NCBI RefSeq assembly: GCF_040256745.1
Contig: NZ_CP138335.1
Span: 1,612,001 to 1,676,000 of the forward strand
Reading direction: 5' to 3'
Source: Scrofimicrobium sp. R131
GTDB lineage: Bacteria > Actinomycetota > Actinomycetes > Actinomycetales > Actinomycetaceae
Length of the DNA stretch: 64,000 nucleotides
Shown here: positions 31,522 through 41,347 of the stretch, piece by piece
How positions within the stretch are numbered: the stretch's first letter is position 1
Layout: the number at the start of each line of letters is the position of its first letter
Made by a program: the position numbers and the translations under genes
Notes under the pieces: generated by a model
What the model saw: the letters and a program-made list of their open reading frames with translations, nothing else
Told to the model about the DNA's origin: nothing
Database searches by the model: none

Positions 31522-32694
31522 GTGGACCTGGCCCGGACCCTGCTGGAGCTGGGGGGCATCATTTTGCTCCTCGGTCTCTTGGGGCGCCTGGCCGCACTGA
31601 TCAACCTCTCCCCCATCCCCCTCTACCTGCTCGGCGGGCTGATGTTTGGCCGGGGAGGCTTTATCCCCCTCTCGGCCGGGGAAGAGTTCATTTCCATTGG
31701 AGCCCAGGTCGGGATCATCCTGCTGCTGCTTCTGTTGGGCCTGGAGTACTCGGCCGAAGAGCTGGTCTCCAATCTGCGAACCCACTACCCGGCGGGAATC
31801 CTCGACTTTGTCCTGAATGCTAGCCCGGGGGCGGCCGCCGCCTGGCTGCTGGGGTGGCCGCCAGCGGGCATCGTCGCCATGGCCGGCGTCACCTACGCCA
31901 CCTCCTCTGGGATCGCGGCCAAACTCCTGTCCGACCTGGGCCGGGTGGGGAACCGGGAAACTCCGGTGGTCCTGTCGATGCTGGTGTTTGAGGACCTACT
32001 GATGGCGGTGTACCTGCCGGTGCTGACCGCCCTCCTGGCGGGAGCCGGCGTCATGGGCGGCCTGATTTCCGTCTTCGGTGCGATGACGGCAGTGGCGATC
32101 GTGATGGTGGTCGCGGTGCGATTCGGCCAGACCATCAATCGGCTGGTGTTCTCCGCAAACGACGAGTTGCTGCTGCTGGGAATCCTCGGGATCGTCCTGG
32201 TGGTAGCCGGGATTGCCGAGGAACTGCACGTCTCCACCGCGGTGGGGGCTTTCCTGGTGGGGATTGCCCTGTCTGAGAATGTGGCCGAAAGTGCCCGGGC
32301 GGTCCTAACGCCGCTGCGCGACCTGTTCTCAGCGGTCTTTTTCGTCTTCTTCGGACTGCAAACGAACGCCTGGGATATTCCGGCGGTGCTGCCGGTGGCC
32401 CTGACCCTCGGGGCGGTGACACTTACAACGAAGCTGGCGGTCGGCACATGGGCAGCGCGACGAGCGGGAGTTGGGCTGCCCGGTCAGATCCGAGCCGGAA
32501 CGGTGATGATTCCCCGCGGCGAGTTCAGCATCGTGATTGCAGGGTTTGCAGCCACCGCCGGGGTGGCCGGGATCGGCCCCCTCGCCGCCACCTACGTGAT
32601 GCTGATGGCCATCGTAGGCCCGGTACTGACCAGGGTGGCCGACCCGCTCACCCTCGGAATCCTGAGCCGCACCCAGGGGCGACGCCCCGGCTAG
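31522..32694 (+). CDS. CPA2-family K+/H+ antiporter (KhtU/KefB-like)
   Basis: A 390-residue membrane protein with about twelve hydrophobic segments, matching the transport domain of the CPA2 family. Typical features are LGLEYSAEEL, TYATSSGIAAKLL, VLVFEDLLMAVYLP with an acidic pair in a membrane helix, and GAFLVGIALSE. There is no C-terminal RCK domain, as expected when the regulator is the separate upstream gene. It likely exports K+ in exchange for protons. GTG start, 3 bp after the regulator stop. The end overlaps the convergent ferredoxin gene by 4 bp. Confidence 0.88.
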   Translation: MDLARTLLELGGIILLLGLLGRLAALINLSPIPLYLLGGLMFGRGGFIPLSAGEEFISIGAQVGIILLLLLLGLEYSAEELVSNLRTHYPAGILDFVLNASPGAAAAWLLGWPPAGIVAMAGVTYATSSGIAAKLLSDLGRVGNRETPVVLSMLVFEDLLMAVYLPVLTALLAGAGVMGGLISVFGAMTAVAIVMVVAVRFGQTINRLVFSANDELLLLGILGIVLVVAGIAEELHVSTAVGAFLVGIALSENVAESARAVLTPLRDLFSAVFFVFFGLQTNAWDIPAVLPVALTLGAVTLTTKLAVGTWAARRAGVGLPGQIRAGTVMIPRGEFSIVIAGFAATAGVAGIGPLAATYVMLMAIVGPVLTRVADPLTLGILSRTQGRRPG

Positions 32695-33635
32695 TCCCGG
32701 TGAGTGGGCGCCCCCGCCTCGGAAACCAGTTGGCCCACTCCCCAACCCAGATGCTGGCGCCGATAGACCTCGGCCCGCCGAATCAACTCGGCCACGTCGG
32801 CGGTCACCCCAAACACCTGCTCGGTTCGGGGCCGACAGGTTTGGCAGTAATCCTGGTCCACTTCGTGATGCACGCTCTGACAGCGGGCGCAGCGGGCCAC
32901 CGGCACCCGGGCCAGCTCCGTCGGGCCCGCCCCCACCAACTCGGCCAACGACAGGGACCCGGGCGAACTCAGGGCACCGGCCGGGCAGAGGGTGAGGCAG
33001 TCGCCCTCCCCCTGGCAGGCACTCGGGTGGTGGTCCAAGCGCGCGGTTCCCTCGTCCACCGTCAGGGTCAGGGCTCCGTGCGGGCAGGACTGGACACAAA
33101 CCCCGCAGGCCAGGCAACCATCGGCCGCCAGCCGCCACGCGGTCGAAGGTACCGGCACCGGGGTAAACTGGCCGGCTGCTCGCAGTTGGGCAAACGCCTG
33201 CAGTTCCCGGTCGTGCTCGCTTTGGTGCAGGTCCAGCGGCCCGGCCACACCCGTAACCGACAGGCCCAACACCAGTCGCCGCGGGAGCGGAATGCTGCCC
33301 AGGTAGAGGACCTCGGGGCGCCAGCTCCCCCACCGCCCCGACGGCTCCTGCCACCGGTGCACGCCGGTCAGGGCCTGGGCCAAGACCTGCCAGGAGCGGC
33401 CGGGGTCGGTCGGCGCATCCGAGCAGGTCTCGGCGACGGCCACCTCGTCCACGCCGCTGGCGCGTAGCTGGGCGGCCAACCCCAAGTAGCGGGCATCCAC
33501 ACAGGTGGGCACCTCTACCACCAGGGTCCCTTTCGGCACCCGCCTCACCTCACTAAACGGACAGGCCAACACCACCGCCCGCGGCGTGTCCGAAGCGTAG
33601 ATCCACCGCAGGAGGGCCCGACTCGGGTCAGTCAT
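32691..33635 (-). CDS. Ferredoxin-domain iron-sulfur protein linked to the dms operon
   Basis: A 314-residue cytosolic protein. A two-cluster ferredoxin domain lies at about 170-222. The first set is C174-x2-C177-x2-C180-x3-C184-P, a standard [4Fe-4S] ligand set. The second has C207, C213 and C217-P, but Glu210 where the second Cys is expected, which suggests a [3Fe-4S] or labile cluster. A four-Cys ribbon (C249, C252, C264, C267) follows. The N-terminal half (C25, C45, C71) is not recognised. It lies 18 bp after dmsC and probably acts in electron supply to, or maturation of, the DMSO-reductase-like enzyme. Confidence 0.75.
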   Translation of the reverse strand: MTDPSRALLRWIYASDTPRAVVLACPFSEVRRVPKGTLVVEVPTCVDARYLGLAAQLRASGVDEVAVAETCSDAPTDPGRSWQVLAQALTGVHRWQEPSGRWGSWRPEVLYLGSIPLPRRLVLGLSVTGVAGPLDLHQSEHDRELQAFAQLRAAGQFTPVPVPSTAWRLAADGCLACGVCVQSCPHGALTLTVDEGTARLDHHPSACQGEGDCLTLCPAGALSSPGSLSLAELVGAGPTELARVPVARCARCQSVHHEVDQDYCQTCRPRTEQVFGVTADVAELIRRAEVYRRQHLGWGVGQLVSEAGAPTHRD

Positions 33636-33653: not shown

Positions 33654-34643
33654 TCAGATGCCGAGGCGGAACATCGACTCGTAGTGCAGGGAGCGGCCCA
33701 TCAGCTCGGCCACGAGCGCCAGCACGAAGGCCAGGGTCACCACCACGGCCAGGGTCCGGGCCGAGCGCCGGGTAGCGGTGGCGGCAATCCGGAAGGCCAG
33801 GAAAGCCATCAGCACCGCCGACAGACCCAGCAGTGCCAGGCGGACCACGAAGAAGGCCCCGCTGAAAACCTCGGCTGCCTGGACCTCACCCAGCTGGGCC
33901 AGGTTGGTCAGGTGCAGCGCGTAGGAAATCAGGACGGCGATTCCCGCCGCAGCCGCGGTGAGGGACAGACCCTGAACCGCCCGCATGGTCAGCCGCCACT
34001 GCGGCTCGGTCGCCGGCTGGTTGATCTCTCGGATCCTCCCCCGGATCTGCCCGATCAGACCCGACCCGGCCGGGGCCGAGGTCGAACCCCGCTCAGCCAG
34101 CCGCTGACGCCAGGCATCGACGATCAGTAGCGCCGCGCAGATGGCCAGCGAACCCAGGATCAGGGCGGTGCCGAAGAACTGGAACGGGACCACCCAGGTG
34201 TTCCACGTGGGCACGGTCGGCAGCGAAGCGTAGATCATGGACATCGACCAGATCAGCCCCACCCCGAGCACCGCGGCCACGGACGCCACCACTTCACGCA
34301 GCCACCCCGGACCCCAGCCTAACCACTGCAGCAGTGCGAACAGGAAGCCGAACGCGGCGAACGACAGCCCGAAGATGATCTCACGTGAGAGCCAGGACGA
34401 ATCCCAGTGCCGGAACACGTTGAGGGTGTGCATGATGTCGTTCATGTGGAACATCGACACCGCCAGTCCCGCCACCAGAATCGGGCCGATGGCCCAAAGG
34501 ACCGGGGTGGTCACCTGGTCGATGGTCTTTTGCTTGAATCGGGCCCGGGCCGCCAGTTGGATCACGCCCAGCCCAATGAACGCGCCCACACACATTTGCG
34601 CGATGACCGTGAACAGGATCATCGGTAGTTCGTGAGTGTTCAT
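33654..34643 (-). CDS. dmsC: DMSO reductase anchor subunit
   Basis: A 329-residue membrane protein with eight to nine hydrophobic segments, of the DmsC family. It anchors DmsAB and takes electrons from menaquinol. The N-terminus (NTHELPMILFTVIAQMCVGAFIGLG) is typical. A cytosolic loop near 170-205 is rich in Arg, Gly and Pro. It starts directly after the dmsB stop with no gap (TAA then ATG). Order A-B-C is conserved with E. coli. Confidence 0.9.
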   Translation of the reverse strand: MNTHELPMILFTVIAQMCVGAFIGLGVIQLAARARFKQKTIDQVTTPVLWAIGPILVAGLAVSMFHMNDIMHTLNVFRHWDSSWLSREIIFGLSFAAFGFLFALLQWLGWGPGWLREVVASVAAVLGVGLIWSMSMIYASLPTVPTWNTWVVPFQFFGTALILGSLAICAALLIVDAWRQRLAERGSTSAPAGSGLIGQIRGRIREINQPATEPQWRLTMRAVQGLSLTAAAAGIAVLISYALHLTNLAQLGEVQAAEVFSGAFFVVRLALLGLSAVLMAFLAFRIAATATRRSARTLAVVVTLAFVLALVAELMGRSLHYESMFRLGI

Positions 34644-35288
34644 TTACATCTCCTTCGGGTTCGCAATGGTGCCGGTGGCGCGATCCCAAGCTTGGGCGTC
34701 CCGGTGGGGGGTGATCACCAGATGCGGCTGCGTCGTCTTCGGGTCTGGCAGGGGGGCAATCCCGTTCTCGGTGCCGTACTTTTCGCGCAGTTCGTCAATT
34801 GGACCCCAGTCCAGTGCGCGCGAGGGACACGCCGCCACGCAGGCCGGATCCTGGCCCTCGGACCGGTAGTCGTAGCACAGGTCGCACTTGGACATGTGGC
34901 CGGTGGAGGCGTTGAACTGCGGGGCCGAGTAGGGGCAGGCCCATTCGCAGTACCGACAGCCCACGCACTTGGAGTCATCCACGTAGACGGTGCCGTCCTC
35001 GCGCTTGGTCATCGCGGTCGTCGGGCAGACCTGAACGCAGATTGGGTTCTCACAGTGGTTGCATGAGATCGAGGTGTAGTAGGTGAACACCTGCGGCACC
35101 ACCGTGTGGTTGTGGTCGTCGCGCTGCCAGGTGCCCCCGGAGTACTCGACAATTCGGCGGAAGTTCACCCCGATCGGCAGGTCGAACTTGTCGTTGCACG
35201 CCACCTGACAGGCCGCACAGCCGGTGCACGCCGACTGGTCGAAATGGAAGCCGTAGTTGGCTCCCGCTTGAGTCTTTGAGTCAGCCAT
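34644..35288 (-). CDS. dmsB: DMSO reductase iron-sulfur subunit
   Basis: A 214-residue electron-transfer subunit with four [4Fe-4S] ligand sets: CTGCAACQVAC, CNHCENPICVQVCP, CVGCRYCEWACP and CDLC with a late CVAACP. This is the standard DmsB pattern linking DmsC to the catalytic DmsA. There is no Tat signal of its own; it would be exported bound to DmsA. It lies 12 bp after dmsA. The third set has Cys at all ligand positions, so no [3Fe-4S] centre is expected. Confidence 0.94.
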   Translation of the reverse strand: MADSKTQAGANYGFHFDQSACTGCAACQVACNDKFDLPIGVNFRRIVEYSGGTWQRDDHNHTVVPQVFTYYTSISCNHCENPICVQVCPTTAMTKREDGTVYVDDSKCVGCRYCEWACPYSAPQFNASTGHMSKCDLCYDYRSEGQDPACVAACPSRALDWGPIDELREKYGTENGIAPLPDPKTTQPHLVITPHRDAQAWDRATGTIANPKEM

Positions 35289-35300
35289 TTATCTCTCCCG

Positions 35301-37859
35301 TCAGGCTTTCTTCACTTGCGCGATGGACGTGTGGACCGCGTTGCCCTTAGCCAGGGGCGAGGGGTGGAGCGAGGTCAGCGAGTTGACCGAGCCGGCCACA
35401 TCCACCGGCTTCTCCGGGTTGGCTTCCGCGGGTGGTTTCACCTCGTTGGCCGGGCGCGGGTCGTACCAGGCGCCCTGGGGCACCGAGATGACCCCGGGCA
35501 TGATCCGCTCGGTCACGCGGGCGGGCAGACGCAGGGTACCGCGGTCGTTGAACACGAAGACGGTGTCGCCGTTCTTAATTCCGCGCTCGGCCGCGTCCTG
35601 CGTGTTGATCCACACGGTTTGCGGGTGGGCCTGTTTGAGCCAGTCCACGTTGCCGTAGGTGGAGTGGGTACGACCCTTGAAGTGGTGCCCAATCACCTGC
35701 AGCGGGTACTCCTTCGAGGTGCGTGCCTCCAGCGCTCCCTCCCAGGTGGGGGTGAACTCGGGCAGTGGCACCAGCCGGTCGCCCTCCAGTTCGGGCCGGA
35801 ACACGCCAAACTGCCACTTTTTGGCCATCTGGGCGAGGCGGTCAGAGTAAATCTCGATCTTGCCCGACGGGGTGGACAGCGGGTTAGCTTCGGGATCGGC
35901 CCGGAACTCCTGCAGGGCGATCGCCGACCCCAGGTTCTTCCGGAACAGGCCCATCTTCTTCCACTCGTCGTAGGTGGGTAGGTCCGGGTCGTTGGCGCGG
36001 GTGGCCTCGATCGTCTCCCGCAGCCAATCCTCGCGACTCTTCCCCTCGGTGAAGGCCGCCTCGGTCCCCAGCAACTTGGACATCTCGGTGCAGATATCAA
36101 ACACCGACTTGCACTCGTAGAGAGGTTCGATCGCCTGGGAAGAGACGATCCCGTAAGCCATCGGGGTTGCGTTCTCACCGGGGTGAATGTCGAACTCTTC
36201 CGCGGTGGAAGTGCCGGGCAGAATGTAATCGGAGTAGCGGGCAGAAACCGTGTACTGAATGTCGCAGGTGACGATCAACTCGCACTTGGAATCGTCCTGC
36301 AGGATCTCGGTGGACAGGTTGTTGTCCCCGGTCTGGTTCACGATGGAGTTGCCCCCGTACTGCCACACCATCTTGATCGGCACGTCCAACTTCACGTTGG
36401 TCGGATTGCCGTTGTCGTCGACCGGCACCTTGTTGGCACGCACCCCCGGAGCCACCTTTTCGCACACCCCCGCGTTGAAGGTGTCCATCTCGGGCCCGTG
36501 GTCAATCGCGTCCAGCCAGGAGAACACCGAGATGATCTTCATCGACGGGTTCATCGTGCCGGTGTTGAACGGTTTGCTGAACGGGAGCCCAACCGAGCCC
36601 TCGCGGGCACCGGTTCCACCCCCAACCAGGCCAATGTTGCCGGTGGCGGCGGCCAGCAGGAAGATGGCCCGGGCCGCGTTCTCACCGTTGGCGTGGCGTT
36701 GAGGACCCCAGCCCTGGGTGATCGCGCACGGTTTCGCGTGGGCGATTTCCCGAGCCAACTGCCGGATCCGCTGGGCGGGGACCCCGGTGATTGAGGCGGC
36801 CCACTCGGGGGTCTTCTCGGTCTGGTCCGGCCCCTTCCCCTCCAGGTACGAGCGGTAGGAGGCGTGCTTAGGCGCCCCCTCGGGCAGGGTCTCTTCGTCA
36901 AAGCCAACGCAGTACTTGTCCAGGAACTCCTGATCGTGCAGGTTCTCCTTGACCATCGTGTGCAACATCCCCGCCACCAGAGCGGCGTCCGTTCCCGGCC
37001 GCAGCGCTACCCAGTCGTCCGCCACTACGGCGGCCGTGTCCGAGTACCGCGGGTCAATCACAATGGTGCGCACCCCGGACTGCTTCTTGGCGGTGGTGGT
37101 GATAAAGGTCTGACCACCCCCCGACATTCTGGTTTCCAGGGGGTTGTTGCCAAACATGACCTGCAGCTGCGAGTTGGCCGCGTCGTCCAGCGAGTTGGAG
37201 TTGACCCAGTCCCCGTAGAAGTACGGGTAGGCCTGGGTAATCTCGGTGGTGGAGTAATCCGAGTAGTGGTCCAGGTATCCGCCCCAGGTGTTCAGCAGGC
37301 GGGCAAACGGGGTCGCATCCGGCGGCCACGAACAGGCCAGCGTCGAGCCAAGTGTCCCGGTGCCGTAGTTGATGTAGAACGCCTCGTTGCCGTACTGCTG
37401 TTTAATCTCCTTCATCTTGTCGGTGATCTCCTGCAGGGCCTGCTCCCAGGAAATTTCTTCCCACTGCTCCTCGCCCCGCTTGGTGCCGGCCACCCGTTTG
37501 AGCGGAGTTTTCAGCCGATCCGGGTTGTAAATGCGGTGTCGAATAGAGCGACCGCGGACACAGGCCCGCACCTGCTGGCTGCCCAGTTCGTTGGTGCCGG
37601 TATCGTCGGGCAGCACCCGAACCACGGTGCCGTCTTTGACTTCCAGCCGAAGCGGGCAGCGTGACCCGCAGTTCACCGTGCAGGCGGACCAAACCACCTG
37701 CGAGGCCCCGTCCGAACCTGCTTCTTCCGCGTGAGCTCGGCTGCGGGGCATCCCCAAGTCCACGGTCGTCACCAGCGCGGCGGCCCCGCCGACGGCTCCC
37801 GACCATTTCAAGAACGTCCGCCTCGATGGCCCGCCCAGGCGGGTCTGTTCATTGGACAT
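35301..37859 (-). CDS. dmsA: DMSO reductase-like molybdopterin catalytic subunit, Tat-exported
   Basis: An 852-residue molybdo-bisMGD oxidoreductase. The twin-arginine signal is S-R13-R14-T-F-L-K, with the hydrophobic stretch to about 45. The N-terminal [4Fe-4S] ligands are C60, C64, C68 and C100. YGTGTLGS near residue 160-170 is the region of the Mo-ligand Ser in DmsA. Cofactor motifs (MFGNNPLETR, GWGPQRHANGENAARA) and the C-terminal molydopterin dinucleotide-binding domain (IGHHFKGRTHSTYGN) are present. The start at 37859 opens the Tat signal. The acceptor may be DMSO, TMAO or another N- or S-oxide. First gene of dmsABC plus ferredoxin. Confidence 0.92.
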   Translation of the reverse strand: MSNEQTRLGGPSRRTFLKWSGAVGGAAALVTTVDLGMPRSRAHAEEAGSDGASQVVWSACTVNCGSRCPLRLEVKDGTVVRVLPDDTGTNELGSQQVRACVRGRSIRHRIYNPDRLKTPLKRVAGTKRGEEQWEEISWEQALQEITDKMKEIKQQYGNEAFYINYGTGTLGSTLACSWPPDATPFARLLNTWGGYLDHYSDYSTTEITQAYPYFYGDWVNSNSLDDAANSQLQVMFGNNPLETRMSGGGQTFITTTAKKQSGVRTIVIDPRYSDTAAVVADDWVALRPGTDAALVAGMLHTMVKENLHDQEFLDKYCVGFDEETLPEGAPKHASYRSYLEGKGPDQTEKTPEWAASITGVPAQRIRQLAREIAHAKPCAITQGWGPQRHANGENAARAIFLLAAATGNIGLVGGGTGAREGSVGLPFSKPFNTGTMNPSMKIISVFSWLDAIDHGPEMDTFNAGVCEKVAPGVRANKVPVDDNGNPTNVKLDVPIKMVWQYGGNSIVNQTGDNNLSTEILQDDSKCELIVTCDIQYTVSARYSDYILPGTSTAEEFDIHPGENATPMAYGIVSSQAIEPLYECKSVFDICTEMSKLLGTEAAFTEGKSREDWLRETIEATRANDPDLPTYDEWKKMGLFRKNLGSAIALQEFRADPEANPLSTPSGKIEIYSDRLAQMAKKWQFGVFRPELEGDRLVPLPEFTPTWEGALEARTSKEYPLQVIGHHFKGRTHSTYGNVDWLKQAHPQTVWINTQDAAERGIKNGDTVFVFNDRGTLRLPARVTERIMPGVISVPQGAWYDPRPANEVKPPAEANPEKPVDVAGSVNSLTSLHPSPLAKGNAVHTSIAQVKKA

Positions 37860-38078: not shown

Positions 38079-38789
38079 ATGAAGGAGGATAAGCGTCGCC
38101 CGGAGGATGATCCGCGGTATCAGCGCGTTCGACGAAGCTTGCACGATGCCGTGCTGCGCTTGAGCGCCAAGAAGCCGGTGGACGAAGTCTCCGTCGCTGA
38201 GCTGACCAATCTGGCCGGGGTCCACCGCACCAGCTTTTACGCCCACGCCAGTTCGCCCTCAGATCTCCTGGTGGCCGCCCTCGTCGCCGAGATGGAGCCG
38301 GGCTTACGGATGCTTCACTCCACACTGCAGCTCGAAGAAACCGACTATTCCGAGTACTGGCAGAACGTCTACACCCACGTTCTGTCCCACGTGCGCGAGC
38401 GCGAGGGAACCTACCGCCAAATCGTCACCGCCAACTCGGCGGTGCTGGTGGGCCTCTACAACTACTTTGCCGACCACGTCAGCGCGTCCCTCGCGGTGAT
38501 GATGAGCTCGTGGAAGAACACCGACTTCACCCCGCTGTGGCTGGAGATGGCTCGCCAGCAGCAAGCTCACAACCTGATGGCGGTAATCATGGCGTGGGTG
38601 GCCACAGATCTGCGGGCCCCCATTCCGCGAGTGGTCGAAGCCTACTGGACCCTGGCTCCGCCCTGGCAGCTGGCCAAAAAGGGCACTGACGGGATGGTTG
38701 AGATGTACCGGCGCGCCACTGACGGCTCGACGCCGGCCTCCGTGGCGCTAGCTGGCCGCCGGCAGATCCTCGAGAGCGGCAGTAAATGA
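38079..38789 (+). CDS. TetR-family transcriptional regulator
   Basis: A 236-residue regulator with an N-terminal TetR helix-turn-helix: VSVAELTNLAGVHRTSFYAHASSPSDLL near residues 38-66. The C-terminal domain (about 80-210) resembles the TetR C33/AcrR type, often small-molecule sensing. AAGGAGGA precedes the start. It is divergent from dmsA, so control of the dms genes is likely. The last 42 bp overlap the end of the convergent TorD-type gene, an unusually long antisense overlap. Confidence 0.88.
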   Translation: MKEDKRRPEDDPRYQRVRRSLHDAVLRLSAKKPVDEVSVAELTNLAGVHRTSFYAHASSPSDLLVAALVAEMEPGLRMLHSTLQLEETDYSEYWQNVYTHVLSHVREREGTYRQIVTANSAVLVGLYNYFADHVSASLAVMMSSWKNTDFTPLWLEMARQQQAHNLMAVIMAWVATDLRAPIPRVVEAYWTLAPPWQLAKKGTDGMVEMYRRATDGSTPASVALAGRRQILESGSK

Positions 38790-39392
38790 GTCCAGCGTGC
38801 CGATCGTCAGTTGGCACACCCCGCGCATGAACTCGGTTTCCGCGGCCTCGGTTGCTTCGGCCAGCATGTCCGGTCCCCACTGGTTGAGGTGCTCGGCCAG
38901 AAACTCGCGCGCCAGGTTCAGGTAGGTGAGCGCCTGCTGATCCTGGCCGGCATCGAGGGCGTCGAGCGCCCGCAGCAGGCACTGGGCCAGAAAGTCGACT
39001 TCAACCCCGATGTGGTCGTCGGGCTCCCGGTTCAACCGGGGCACCTGCAGCGAAAGCTGCCGGTAGGCTTCGCGCACCAGCAGGGTCTGCTGGTCAAACA
39101 CCAGCCCGTCCCGGTCGCGGTGGACCGACTCGTACGGGGCTACCCGAGCCACCGCGCTGACGCCGTAGAGCCGGTTCAGGTCGCCCCGGATTTGATAGGC
39201 GGATTCGGCTTCGGCAAAAGACGTACGCAGGTGGGCCAGACCGGCTGACGAGGCCTCACCTACCGGGACCGGCCATTCCTCCAGCAACTCCCCGAAGGCA
39301 CTCAACGTGTTCTCGTCAGGCGCCTGGCGGTGAAACCGGCCCAGGGTGGCCAGCGCCGCGGCATAGTCATCAAGTTCGTCAGCTGTAAGCAT
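38748..39392 (-). CDS. TorD/DmsD-family molybdoenzyme chaperone
   Basis: A 214-residue all-helical cytosolic protein. Signatures are RLYGVSAVARVAPYESVHRD (near 88-107) and EPDDHIGVEVDFLAQCLL (near 137-154). These chaperones bind the Tat signal of DmsA-like enzymes and hold them until cofactor loading is complete. The start at 39392 (MLTADELDDY) is chosen because the upstream in-frame extension has no family match. It is separated from dmsA by the TetR gene and is read in the same direction as dmsA. Confidence 0.88.
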   Translation of the reverse strand: MLTADELDDYAAALATLGRFHRQAPDENTLSAFGELLEEWPVPVGEASSAGLAHLRTSFAEAESAYQIRGDLNRLYGVSAVARVAPYESVHRDRDGLVFDQQTLLVREAYRQLSLQVPRLNREPDDHIGVEVDFLAQCLLRALDALDAGQDQQALTYLNLAREFLAEHLNQWGPDMLAEATEAAETEFMRGVCQLTIGTLDSFTAALEDLPAAS

Positions 39393-39496
39393 GAAACAAA
39401 ATTGTAGGTCAAGTACGGACAATTGGGCGGATCTTGTCCACCCCGGTAGCAACGCGGTACTTTGAGGTGGTTACTCACCGACGAGAGGAGACCCGC

Positions 39497-39772
39497 GTGG
39501 CACCCAAGAAAGATGATCCGCAAGAAATGGAAAAGATGCGCCAGTGGCTCGGCGCCGCCGCGACCGAACTGGACCTGGACCAGAAAACCATTGCCGAGGT
39601 GGAACAACCGCTGCTGGGTCTGATCGGCACGGTCGCTCACGGCCCCTCGCGGCCGGGGGCACCACTCTCAGCCTATTTGGTCGGGGTCGCCGTTGGGCGG
39701 GGAGCCGACCCTGAGCAGGCGATTTCCCAGCTCACCCAACTGGCCGAGAGCTATCCTTCGACCGGTCGGTAG
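39497..39772 (+). CDS. DUF6457-domain protein (MobA-associated)
   Basis: A 91-residue protein matching DUF6457, a helical domain otherwise found at the C-terminus of, or beside, molybdopterin-guanine dinucleotide transferases in actinobacteria. Its hallmark is AHGPSRPGAPLSAYLVG near residue 45-61. The GTG start at 39497 is chosen because GAGGAG lies 6 bases before it; upstream in-frame starts lack this. Encoded between the TorD-type chaperone and the tat genes, it fits a role in making or inserting the DmsA cofactor. The family has no proven activity. Confidence 0.75.
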   Translation: MAPKKDDPQEMEKMRQWLGAAATELDLDQKTIAEVEQPLLGLIGTVAHGPSRPGAPLSAYLVGVAVGRGADPEQAISQLTQLAESYPSTGR

Positions 39773-39816: not shown

Positions 39817-40212
39817 ATGTTCGGGATCAACGGAGCCGAACTGCTGGTCCTCCTCTTTGTCTTCCTGATTATTTTGGGCCCGAAAGGCATCCAGGACGCC
39901 CTCCGCGGGTTCAAACGCCTGGTGGCCTGGGCCCGCTCTATCAGCGCCAAGCTCCGCGAGGAATCCAACCTGGACCTGCAGTCCACCGGCCTCACTGAAC
40001 TCAACCTGTCAGACTTTGACTTAAGCCAATACGATCCGCGCGAAATTATCCGCCAGGCGGTCCGCGAGGAGATGGACGCCTGGATCGAGCAGGCCAAGCA
40101 CGGGGCCTCTCCCACCGGCAATAACCCCAGGTCGAACCCCGGGTCAGCTACGATACAAGTGCATCGCGAGGACAACCCCTCGACCGGATCGGCCCCGGCG
40201 CCGACCGACTAA
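39817..40212 (+). CDS. tatB: Sec-independent translocase subunit TatB
   Basis: A 131-residue single-span membrane protein. The N-terminus MFGINGAELLVLLFVFLIILGP is the TatB type (membrane helix, then Gly-Pro hinge), followed by an amphipathic helix to about residue 50 and an acidic tail of roughly 80 residues. It works with TatC to recognise twin-arginine signals such as that of DmsA. First of three tat genes; 26 bp separate it from tatA. A TatB identity is favoured over TatA by the Gly-Pro hinge and acidic tail. Confidence 0.88.
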   Translation: MFGINGAELLVLLFVFLIILGPKGIQDALRGFKRLVAWARSISAKLREESNLDLQSTGLTELNLSDFDLSQYDPREIIRQAVREEMDAWIEQAKHGASPTGNNPRSNPGSATIQVHREDNPSTGSAPAPTD

Positions 40213-40238
40213 CCAGGCTGTAAAGGACGCAATCAGCT

Positions 40239-40559
40239 ATGAGACCAAGTCACTGGATCATCGTCATCCTGGTGGTGATCATCATTTTCGGTGCCGCGAA
40301 GCTTCCGGACATCGCGCGCTCGATCGGCCAGTCCGCCAAAATCCTGAAGAAGGAAATGCGCGAGCTGCAAGAGGAGCCCCCCGCCCCGCAGACATACGAC
40401 CCCAATGCGGTTCCGCCCCAGCCCCCCACGTACAACCCGAACGTGCCCCAGGCTGGTGCCTACGATCCCAACGCCGGACCTGCCGCCCCGGGGTCAGCCC
40501 CACCCGGCCAGGTTCCGCCCGCCGGTCCGCCGGCTCCTGATCAACCGCAAGGGACGTGA
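40239..40559 (+). CDS. tatA: Sec-independent translocase subunit TatA
   Basis: A 106-residue single-span protein. The membrane helix IIVILVVIIIFGAAKLPDIARSIGQSAKILKKEMREL carries the FG hinge typical of TatA. From residue 46 the tail is Pro-rich, with repeated TYDPNA, TYNPNV and AYDPNA units about 16 residues apart, longer and more repetitive than usual. TatA oligomers form the passage for folded proteins. The stop overlaps the tatC start by 4 bp. Confidence 0.9.
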   Translation: MRPSHWIIVILVVIIIFGAAKLPDIARSIGQSAKILKKEMRELQEEPPAPQTYDPNAVPPQPPTYNPNVPQAGAYDPNAGPAAPGSAPPGQVPPAGPPAPDQPQGT

Positions 40560-41347
40560 AAGAGCGCACCCGGCGCCCCCCAAACCCTGAGAAGCGAATG
40601 ACGGTGCTTGCGCACCTGAAAGAACTGCGCAAGCGCCTGCTTCTCATTCTGCTTGGCCTCCTGGTGGGAACCATCGTGGGCTGGTTCTTCACCATGCCGG
40701 TGTTGGAGTACATTCAGCGTCCACTGCTCCAGCTCACCGATGCCAACCCTCGCCTGAACTTCCAGACCATTGGCGGCGCCTTCGACCTGCGACTCCGGGT
40801 TGCATTTTGGACCGGCGCCATCCTGTCCAGCCCCTGGTGGATCCTGCAGATCGGACTGTTCGTCTGGCCGGGGCTGCGCCGGAAGGAACGCCTCCACGCC
40901 CTCGGCTTTGGGGTGGCTGGCGTGATCCTGTTCGGGGCCGGCGTGGTGGCCGGAATCAAAGTGGTGCCCCAGGCGATCGACATTCTGGTCTCGTTCCTGC
41001 CCGGCGGCGCCGAAATGCTGCTCCGAGCCGACTCGTACCTCAGCTTCTATATGACGCTGGTGTTCGCGTTCGGGTTCTCTTTCCTGCTGCCAGAGATCCT
41101 GGTCGCCCTGAACTTTGCCGGGATCCTGCCGGCGAAAGCCATGCTGAAGGCGTGGCGTTGGGCGGTCCTGGTGGCCTTTGTGATTGCAGCCATCATCAAC
41201 CCCATTCCGAACCCAATCCCCATGATCATCCAGGCCTTCGGTCTGATTGCGCTGTACTTGGTGGCGGTGGGGATTTCCTGGTGGCGCGAGCGGATCATCC
41301 GCAAGCGCCGGTCCGACCCCACTTCCACCCCGGAAGTGGCTGGGTGA
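40556..41347 (+). CDS. tatC: Sec-independent translocase subunit TatC
   Basis: A 263-residue membrane protein with six hydrophobic segments. Conserved features are MTVLAHLKELRKRLL at the start, LRLRVAFWTGAILSSPWWILQ, WPGLRRKER and FGFSFLLPEILVAL. TatC is the receptor for twin-arginine signals. GTG start overlapping tatA (GTGA). tatB-tatA-tatC as one unit is less common in actinobacteria than tatA-tatC with a separate tatB, and its place beside the dms genes is telling. Confidence 0.95.
   Translation: MKERTRRPPNPEKRMTVLAHLKELRKRLLLILLGLLVGTIVGWFFTMPVLEYIQRPLLQLTDANPRLNFQTIGGAFDLRLRVAFWTGAILSSPWWILQIGLFVWPGLRRKERLHALGFGVAGVILFGAGVVAGIKVVPQAIDILVSFLPGGAEMLLRADSYLSFYMTLVFAFGFSFLLPEILVALNFAGILPAKAMLKAWRWAVLVAFVIAAIINPIPNPIPMIIQAFGLIALYLVAVGISWWRERIIRKRRSDPTSTPEVAG

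Follow-up and report, generated by a model that had tools for sequence, protein, structure and literature searches.

What does a ferredoxin-like protein with one ligand missing do at the end of an operon for a dimethyl sulfoxide (DMSO) reductase? The question is raised by a stretch of 64,000 nucleotides from Scrofimicrobium sp. R131 (contig NZ_CP138335.1, positions 1,612,001 to 1,676,000 of the forward strand), referred to here as the window, in which dmsA, dmsB and dmsC are followed by the gene of a 314-residue accessory protein. The name DmsX was coined for this protein. The initial annotation had described it as a ferredoxin with Glu in place of one ligand Cys, joined to an unrecognised N-terminal domain with spaced cysteines and to a zinc-ribbon-like tail. 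It is reported here that DmsX is one of a family of actinobacterial proteins whose occurrence follows that of dmsA. It is further proposed that the protein serves as an accessory ferredoxin for DMSO reductase that resembles NapF in its presumed working, though it is no member of the NapF family, and that combines a probably MvhD-like domain with a ferredoxin module that would be optional.

The open reading frame starts with ATG, and the protein contains 14 cysteines, at positions 25, 45, 71, 174, 177, 180, 184, 207, 213, 217, 249, 252, 264 and 267, with Glu at 210. Its parts are laid out as follows, in window coordinates.

32691..33635, minus strand: DmsX, with alpha/beta domain, RR motif, Fer4 dicluster and four-Cys ribbon (open reading frame, Pfam, homologues, AlphaFold2 model).
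33162..33635, minus strand: N-terminal alpha/beta domain, residues 1-158, with C25, C45 and C71 (AlphaFold2 model of the domain alone; cysteines nearly all-or-none in 83 homologues).
33276..33281, minus strand: R119-R120 in the motif IPLPRRLVLGL (RR in 83/83 homologues).
32982..33116, minus strand: Fer4 dicluster, C174 to P218, with the second motif C207-E210-C213-C217 (Pfam, sequence).
32835..32891, minus strand: four-Cys ribbon C249, C252, C264, C267 (83/83 homologues; residues 165-274 of the model match HycF structurally).

The annotated make-up is borne out on a closer reading. The first Fer4 motif is complete (C174-x2-C177-x2-C180-x3-C184-P), and the second (C207-x2-E210-x2-C213-x3-C217-P) has Glu where Cys is expected. 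The rule for an 8Fe dicluster calls for eight Cys in two CxxCxxCxxxCP motifs; DmsX has seven, with E at 210. The Fer4_7 dicluster family of Pfam (PF12838) matches at 37 bits, against a cut-off of 27, and homologues of near full length reach up to 41% or 46% identity, depending on the aligner. Because of this match, these homologues and its place 18 bp behind dmsC, the open reading frame can be taken as a real gene. In the full list of 15 Pfam matches, residues 1-165, which hold Cys 25, 45 and 71, have no family of their own at E 1, the tail (CxxC-x11-CxxC at 249, 252, 264 and 267) has a single match, below cut-off, and no twin-arginine translocation (Tat) signal is present. Of the 81 NCBIfam matches, the best 25 all fall below their cut-offs, and TIGR00402, the NapF family, is not among these 25. 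Furthermore, no membrane segment was found, the top 19-residue mean hydropathy being 1.26 in DmsX as against 2.49 in DmsC; the top value among 83 homologues is 2.08. The gene converges on that of a sodium/proton exchanger (31522-32694), and the 3' ends of the two overlap by 4 bp (window positions 32691-32694).

The tie to dmsA was observed in a survey of 213 family genomes, among them that of the window. A search with the DmsX of the window (E 1e-8) finds a homologue in 54 of these genomes, and DmsA is matched (E 1e-60) in 71. All 54 DmsX-positive genomes have dmsA, and none of the 142 dmsA-negative genomes has DmsX. With a profile as query (A1, 35 rows, 1e-12), DmsX is detected in 68 genomes, that is, 65 of the 71 with dmsA and 3 of the 142 without it. 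The co-occurrence with dms genes that the initial annotation had put up for checking is seen in these 213 genomes, and the wide occurrence without them that it had named as counter-evidence is not. The three matches in dmsA-negative genomes are paralogues or broken copies: in G094 a paralogue adjoining weakly DmsA- and DmsB-like genes, in G086 a paralogue of the same kind together with an apparently broken copy adjoining torD, and in G202 a broken copy adjoining dmsA/dmsB fragments. Within the genus, the five other genomes (G184-G188) have neither a dmsA match at 1e-60 nor DmsX, so the dms locus is patchy there.

At L241:9020-10461, a broken DmsX copy lies by fragments of dmsA and dmsB, and the genome in question gives no dmsA match at 1e-60. 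It seems that the genes decay together.

Beyond the family, homologues were found in Nocardioides, Tessaracoccus, Arachnia, Cellulomonas, Sanguibacter, Nitriliruptoria and others. Environmental carriers of the gene include Georgenia satyanarayanai (L087) and Tessaracoccus antarcticus (L102). A contig scan with the single DmsX sequence as query returned no relative, and the same scan with the DmsX alignment returned 110, of which the best 80 were kept. Among these 80, the match extends past Fer4 in the loci L087-L122 and lies mainly over Fer4 in L123-L166, with L144 scoring over the tail too. Of the 36 loci L087-L122, 27 have dmsA within the fetched stretch; half of the 36 duplicate genomes of the family.

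What the family keeps was read from an alignment of 83 homologues and five outgroup rows (the four paralogues L237-L240 and L168). Left out of the 83 were, from the 54 family loci, the paralogue L085; from 17 later loci, the apparently broken L236 and L241 and the outgroup paralogues; and 18 of the 36 loci L087-L122, which were taken to be the same contigs as family genomes. R119 and R120 are present in 83/83 homologues, and the ribbon cysteines 249, 252, 264 and 267 in 83/83 homologues and 5/5 outgroup rows; the rows were collected by similarity, so this constancy may be somewhat overstated. The iron-sulfur (Fe-S) part is the most variable of all, with clusters degenerate or absent in 11 of the 83. 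Position 210 is C in 50 homologues, E in 18, D in 4, A in 4, S in 2, T in 2, N in 1, H in 1 and a gap in 1, and position 177 is S or R instead of Cys in three. The weight that the initial annotation had laid on E210 is not sustained by this spread, and E210 was rejected as the key to function. As the site is Cys in all five outgroup rows and variable in the homologues, loss of the Cys is the likely direction.

Two further forms go beyond the loss of a single ligand. In ten homologues (L086, L232-L234, L242-L245, L247, L248), both C180 and C213 are lost, the third Cys of each Fer4 motif, leaving CxxC-x6-CP twice. Neither motif is therefore an ordinary four-Cys 4Fe-4S site in these proteins, and the two may be zinc sites now. 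The open reading frame L235:9252-9866 (plus strand, 204 residues) lies directly behind dmsC with torD upstream; it keeps the N-terminal domain, RR, ribbon and NPF, and no Fer4 is found in any of its three forward frames. The N-terminal cysteines 25/45/71 read CCC in 70 homologues and CHC in 2, and are absent in 11, a count that includes L095, printed as C-- as its Cys sits in an insert. In the first 55 sequences (the paralogue L085 included), 46 have all three, 9 have none and none is mixed. On a tree made by a quick method from 86 of the 88 rows (L235 and L168 left out), the N-terminal triplet changes at least four times, position 210 switches between Cys and not-Cys at least four times, and the C180/C213 double loss occurs once. 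The window DmsX forms a long branch on this tree, and its place is therefore unsure. Median identity to the window protein is 32% for DmsX as against 72% for DmsA (in 23 of the 54 loci, after a length filter); by this measure DmsX diverges faster than DmsA.

The surroundings of the gene in the window are as follows. The operon runs dmsA-dmsB-dmsC-DmsX gene, with gaps of 12, 0 and 18 bp, in a host genome of a single 2.22 Mb contig.

33654..34643, minus strand: dmsC, membrane anchor (PF04976, above Pfam cut-off).
34644..35288, minus strand: dmsB, iron-sulfur subunit (TIGR02951, 255 bits, cut-off 214).
35301..37859, minus strand: dmsA, molybdopterin subunit with Tat signal PSRRTFLKW (PF10518; TIGR02166, 1042 bits, cut-off 778); the start at MSNEQ is assumed, and the open frame extends to 38018.
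38079..38789, plus strand: TetR-like regulator (20.2 bits, short of the Pfam cut-off of 24), divergent from dmsA.
38748..39452, minus strand: TorD/DmsD/NarJ-type chaperone (PF02613, above cut-off).
39434..39772, plus strand: DUF6457 protein (PF20058, Pfam).
39817..41347, plus strand: tatB-like gene, tatA and tatC (tatA and tatC by Pfam; the tatB-like gene, which has no Pfam hit, from its position and from what tblastn matches at other tat loci).

A similar company is kept in the relatives. Among the 54 loci retrieved (L033-L086, each of at most 19.9 kb, some ended by contig ends, with L085 as the locus of the paralogue; tblastn 1e-3), torD is found in 47, dmsA in 42, dmsB in 42, dmsC in 39, DUF6457 in 39, tatC in 20, tatA in 18, tatB in 16 and TetR in 15. 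In nine loci (L033, L036-L043), the DmsX gene lies by tatB/A/C with no dmsABC within the stretch, and dmsA of these genomes is on a different contig or more than 0.5 Mb off. A diverged TorD, with 26-29% identity to the window's, adjoins the DmsX gene in five of the nine (L033, L036, L038, L042, L043). Similarly, one dms locus of Nocardioides (L091) has two TorD-type genes (L091:1145 and L091:6434), with 53% and 28% identity to the window's TorD; the 53% copy adjoins dmsA, and the diverged 28% copy adjoins the DmsX gene. Could the diverged TorD be a chaperone specific to that pair? The neighbourhood by tat and the diverged TorD favours, therefore, a role with chaperone and export over a place inside the enzyme.

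Because neither Tat signal nor membrane segment was found in DmsX, and because it travels with torD and tat and keeps the RR in all 83 rows, a role in maturation or quality control is proposed. It is considered probable that DmsX is a cytoplasmic factor of this kind for the Tat-exported DmsA and acts on it much as NapF does on NapA. Its invariant core, made up of alpha/beta domain, twin-Arg motif and four-Cys ribbon, would dock on unfinished DmsA and/or the TorD chaperone. By analogy with NapF, the ferredoxin module would supply or repair an Fe-S cluster of DmsA, or give electrons for that, before Tat export. The second cluster, with E210, could be [3Fe-4S], Glu-ligated or labile, and would then be suited to a donor. 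The Fe-S step would be optional, since the family also does without ligand 210 or without both clusters. As the clusters can be lost, docking would likely be the core function, with Fe-S or electron supply an addition to it. Natural forms of the family without ligand 2, without one Cys per cluster, without the N-terminal triplet and without the ferredoxin offer a ready-made mutant series for separating docking from Fe-S donation.

The DmsX family bears on the question of which protein inserts the Fe-S cluster into DMSO-reductase-type catalytic subunits, and no description of it was found in open-licence papers. NapF (TIGR00402) is likewise a soluble Fe-S protein encoded in the operon of a Tat-exported molybdoenzyme. 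A twin-Arg motif ahead of the Fer4 motifs is its defining feature, and the same order is seen in DmsX (DASRRGILTG in E. coli NapF, the only NapF compared, and IPLPRRLVLGL in DmsX). NapF is described as a cytosolic protein required for in vitro Fe-S reconstitution of Rhodobacter sphaeroides NapA, and in E. coli it was found in complex with NapA (PMC10609526). Fe-S insertion into DMSO-reductase-type catalytic subunits comes before that of the molybdenum cofactor, and the passages of that review dealing with dedicated Fe-S helpers name one for Nap alone, NapF (PMC10609526). By membership, however, the two differ. NapF has four tetra-Cys motifs (passages of PMC10609526), whereas DmsX has two, one of them with three Cys. 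E. coli NapF, with 164 residues, has no room for an N-terminal alpha/beta part of the DmsX type, and its partner is Nap, where the one proposed for the DmsX family is Dms.

Several points weigh against the maturation role. The likeness in RR between NapF and DmsX is that of a short motif, and their sequence match is limited to Fer4. The double-Arg motif of NapF was reportedly found to be not essential in a study of 2006. If members of the family can do without the clusters, the donation of Fe-S cannot be what the protein is chiefly for. The Fisher p of 1e-43 for the tie between DmsX and dmsA takes the 213 genomes as independent, though they are related, and is uncorrected for kinship. Six genomes with dmsA have no detected DmsX (G015, G027, G120, G168 with a partial dmsA, G190 and G197), so the protein is not strictly needed. 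The neighbours and paralogues would also fit an electron donor or a sensor. Finally, the effect of losing NapF itself is described as large in R. sphaeroides but small both in E. coli and in Wolinella succinogenes, and NapF is missing from some nap operons (passages of PMC10609526).

The first of these other roles is that of an electron-transfer subunit or partner, with its pair of clusters carrying electrons between DmsABC and a donor in the cytoplasm. The Fer4 dicluster and the place of the gene in the dms operon speak for it, as does the closest match of the C-terminal half, HycF, an electron-transfer and structural subunit of a hydrogenase. The AlphaFold2 model of DmsX, made with 36 homologues, has a mean predicted local distance difference test (pLDDT) of 88 and a predicted template modelling score (pTM) of 0.80. 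Its best structural match over residues 165-274 is E. coli HycF (7z0t_F; VIA-align Z 9.8, root-mean-square deviation (rmsd) 3.3 over 108 residues). Foldseek gives E 3.8e-5 for the C-terminal half against 7z0s_F, another HycF entry, and hhalign of the DmsX profile against E. coli HycF a probability of 97, the aligned part being Fer4 together with the tail's first CxxC. From these structural and profile matches, ferredoxin and ribbon jointly resemble a HycF-like module. HycF and HyfH (PRK12387, formate hydrogenlyase iron-sulfur subunit) share with DmsX the Fer4 dicluster followed by a Cys tail, but PRK12387 scores 28.3 bits in DmsX against a cut-off of 204, and the HycF match leaves out the N-terminal domain. 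Electron transfer is nonetheless unlikely. DmsA carries a Tat signal, and neither such a signal nor a membrane segment was found in DmsX; ligands vary, with both clusters degenerate or absent in 11/83 homologues that keep the rest of the protein; and the gene lies with tat, not dms, in nine genomes. Of the 'new accessory subunit' in the initial annotation, the dms-linked accessory protein of unrecognised make-up stands, and the word subunit finds no support, given that neither Tat signal nor membrane segment was found and given the nine tat-side genomes, unless DmsX is exported together with a partner that carries a signal.

The N-terminal domain asks for an origin of its own. Modelled alone (residues 1-158), it has a pLDDT of 87.8 and a pTM of 0.85, and Foldseek with it found nothing at E 0.001. 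The VIA list is led by 5odc_D (Z 4.4, rmsd 4.5 over 91 residues), followed by 7bkb_F and 5odh_D at Z 4.3, and unrelated folds tie with these, for example 2cd9_B at Z 4.4; the chains at ranks 1, 3 and 4 (5odc_D, 7bkb_F, 5odh_D) we take to be MvhD. Profile tests of the N-terminal half, of the kind suggested in the initial annotation, lean towards MvhD as well. Against a PF02662 set of 18 sequences, hhalign gives P 0.0012 and probability 20, with C45 and C71 in register. The corresponding domain of L168 is matched at P 0.00054 and probability 30, all three Cys falling in register, and L168 itself aligns with the PF02662 set at P 0.0002 and probability 46. Each is weak when taken alone, and the single-sequence tests are weak as well (probabilities 1.5 and 1.0). 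Taken together with the VIA list, the two PF02662 tests and the L168 test make an MvhD-like origin likely, and the domain is probably a diverged MvhD-like fold, on moderate evidence. Membership of MvhD by profile was rejected, there being no PF02662 match in DmsX at E 1, nor any in its genome. PF02662 is also absent among the best 25 of 42 families for 37 DmsX homologues, and a PDB sequence search with the N-terminal profile gave E 0.076 at best, to unrelated proteins. MvhD/FrhD (FlpD, PF02662, hydrogenase delta subunit) differs further in having five conserved Cys in the PF02662 set, as against three in the DmsX domain.

A bolder account would make DmsX a docking protein at its core, and not a ferredoxin. 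Its internal twin-Arg would mimic a Tat signal and engage a TorD-type chaperone or the Tat receptor, holding or releasing DmsA; the three-Cys MvhD-like site and the ribbon would act as a redox or metal switch, and the ferredoxin would be an exchangeable module. Dms, Ttr and Fdh operons would share such a protein as a further, unnamed class of maturation factors beside NarJ/TorD and NapD. The mimicry would lie in the pattern P/S-RR-x-L-L/F-G, to be set beside SRRTFLK in the signal of DmsA itself. In this full form, the account is regarded as speculative and improbable. It is rather improbable, too, that DmsX is a redox or metal sensor tuning expression or assembly, which would signal the oxygen or metal state to a chaperone or regulator by way of its N-terminal Cys, its weak second cluster and its ribbon. 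The nearly all-or-none N-terminal triplet, the variable cluster ligands and the TetR-like gene adjoining the operon are in line with sensing, but no DNA-binding or signalling domain appears in the full Pfam list, and TetR is present in only 15 of the 54 loci. That DmsX is a decaying ferredoxin without selected function, kept by linkage, as ligand losses in several lineages and the long branch of the window copy might suggest, is very improbable, given an RR and ribbon unchanged in 83/83 homologues spanning Actinomycetes and Nitriliruptoria and a copy kept in 65/71 dmsA-positive genomes, nine of them away from dms.

The DmsX kind is not confined to dms, as judged from paralogues of like build, one of them by a TtrA-like molybdoenzyme. 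In the paralogues L237-L240 (343-381 residues), the Cys of the alpha/beta domain, the RR, the Fer4 dicluster and the ribbon can all be aligned with those of DmsX, and an extra Fer4-type stretch is present at the N-terminus of L237, L238 and L240. L237 aligns with the DmsX family in hhalign at E 8.5e-18, in the same domain order. The gene adjoining it encodes a molybdoenzyme whose best match is TtrA (392 bits, cut-off 1750), with a DsrO/ArrB/TtrB-like subunit as partner. Weak DmsA- and DmsB-like matches are seen in the stretches of L238, L240 and L085, itself a paralogue. L168 (523 residues) and L144 (486 residues, Pyrodictium) each have two Fer4 diclusters and a Cys tail. On account of these paralogues, L168 and L144, DmsX appears to be a shortened version of a broader type of ferredoxin linked to molybdoenzymes. 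The SO4508-type ferredoxins of torD/fdh operons in Proteobacteria presumably share its order of alpha/beta domain, RR, Fer4 dicluster and ribbon, judging from L144, L168 and the paralogues.

The DmsX protein has no match at 0.01 among plasmids. A class-wide profile search at 1e-10 returned 5 of 394 genomes, namely the window's own and four matching over Fer4 (L168 over Fer4 and the tail). Full members are thus rare in this sample, in which dmsA itself was not searched. With L168 as query, 1 of 296 genomes of the phylum was retrieved at 1e-15.

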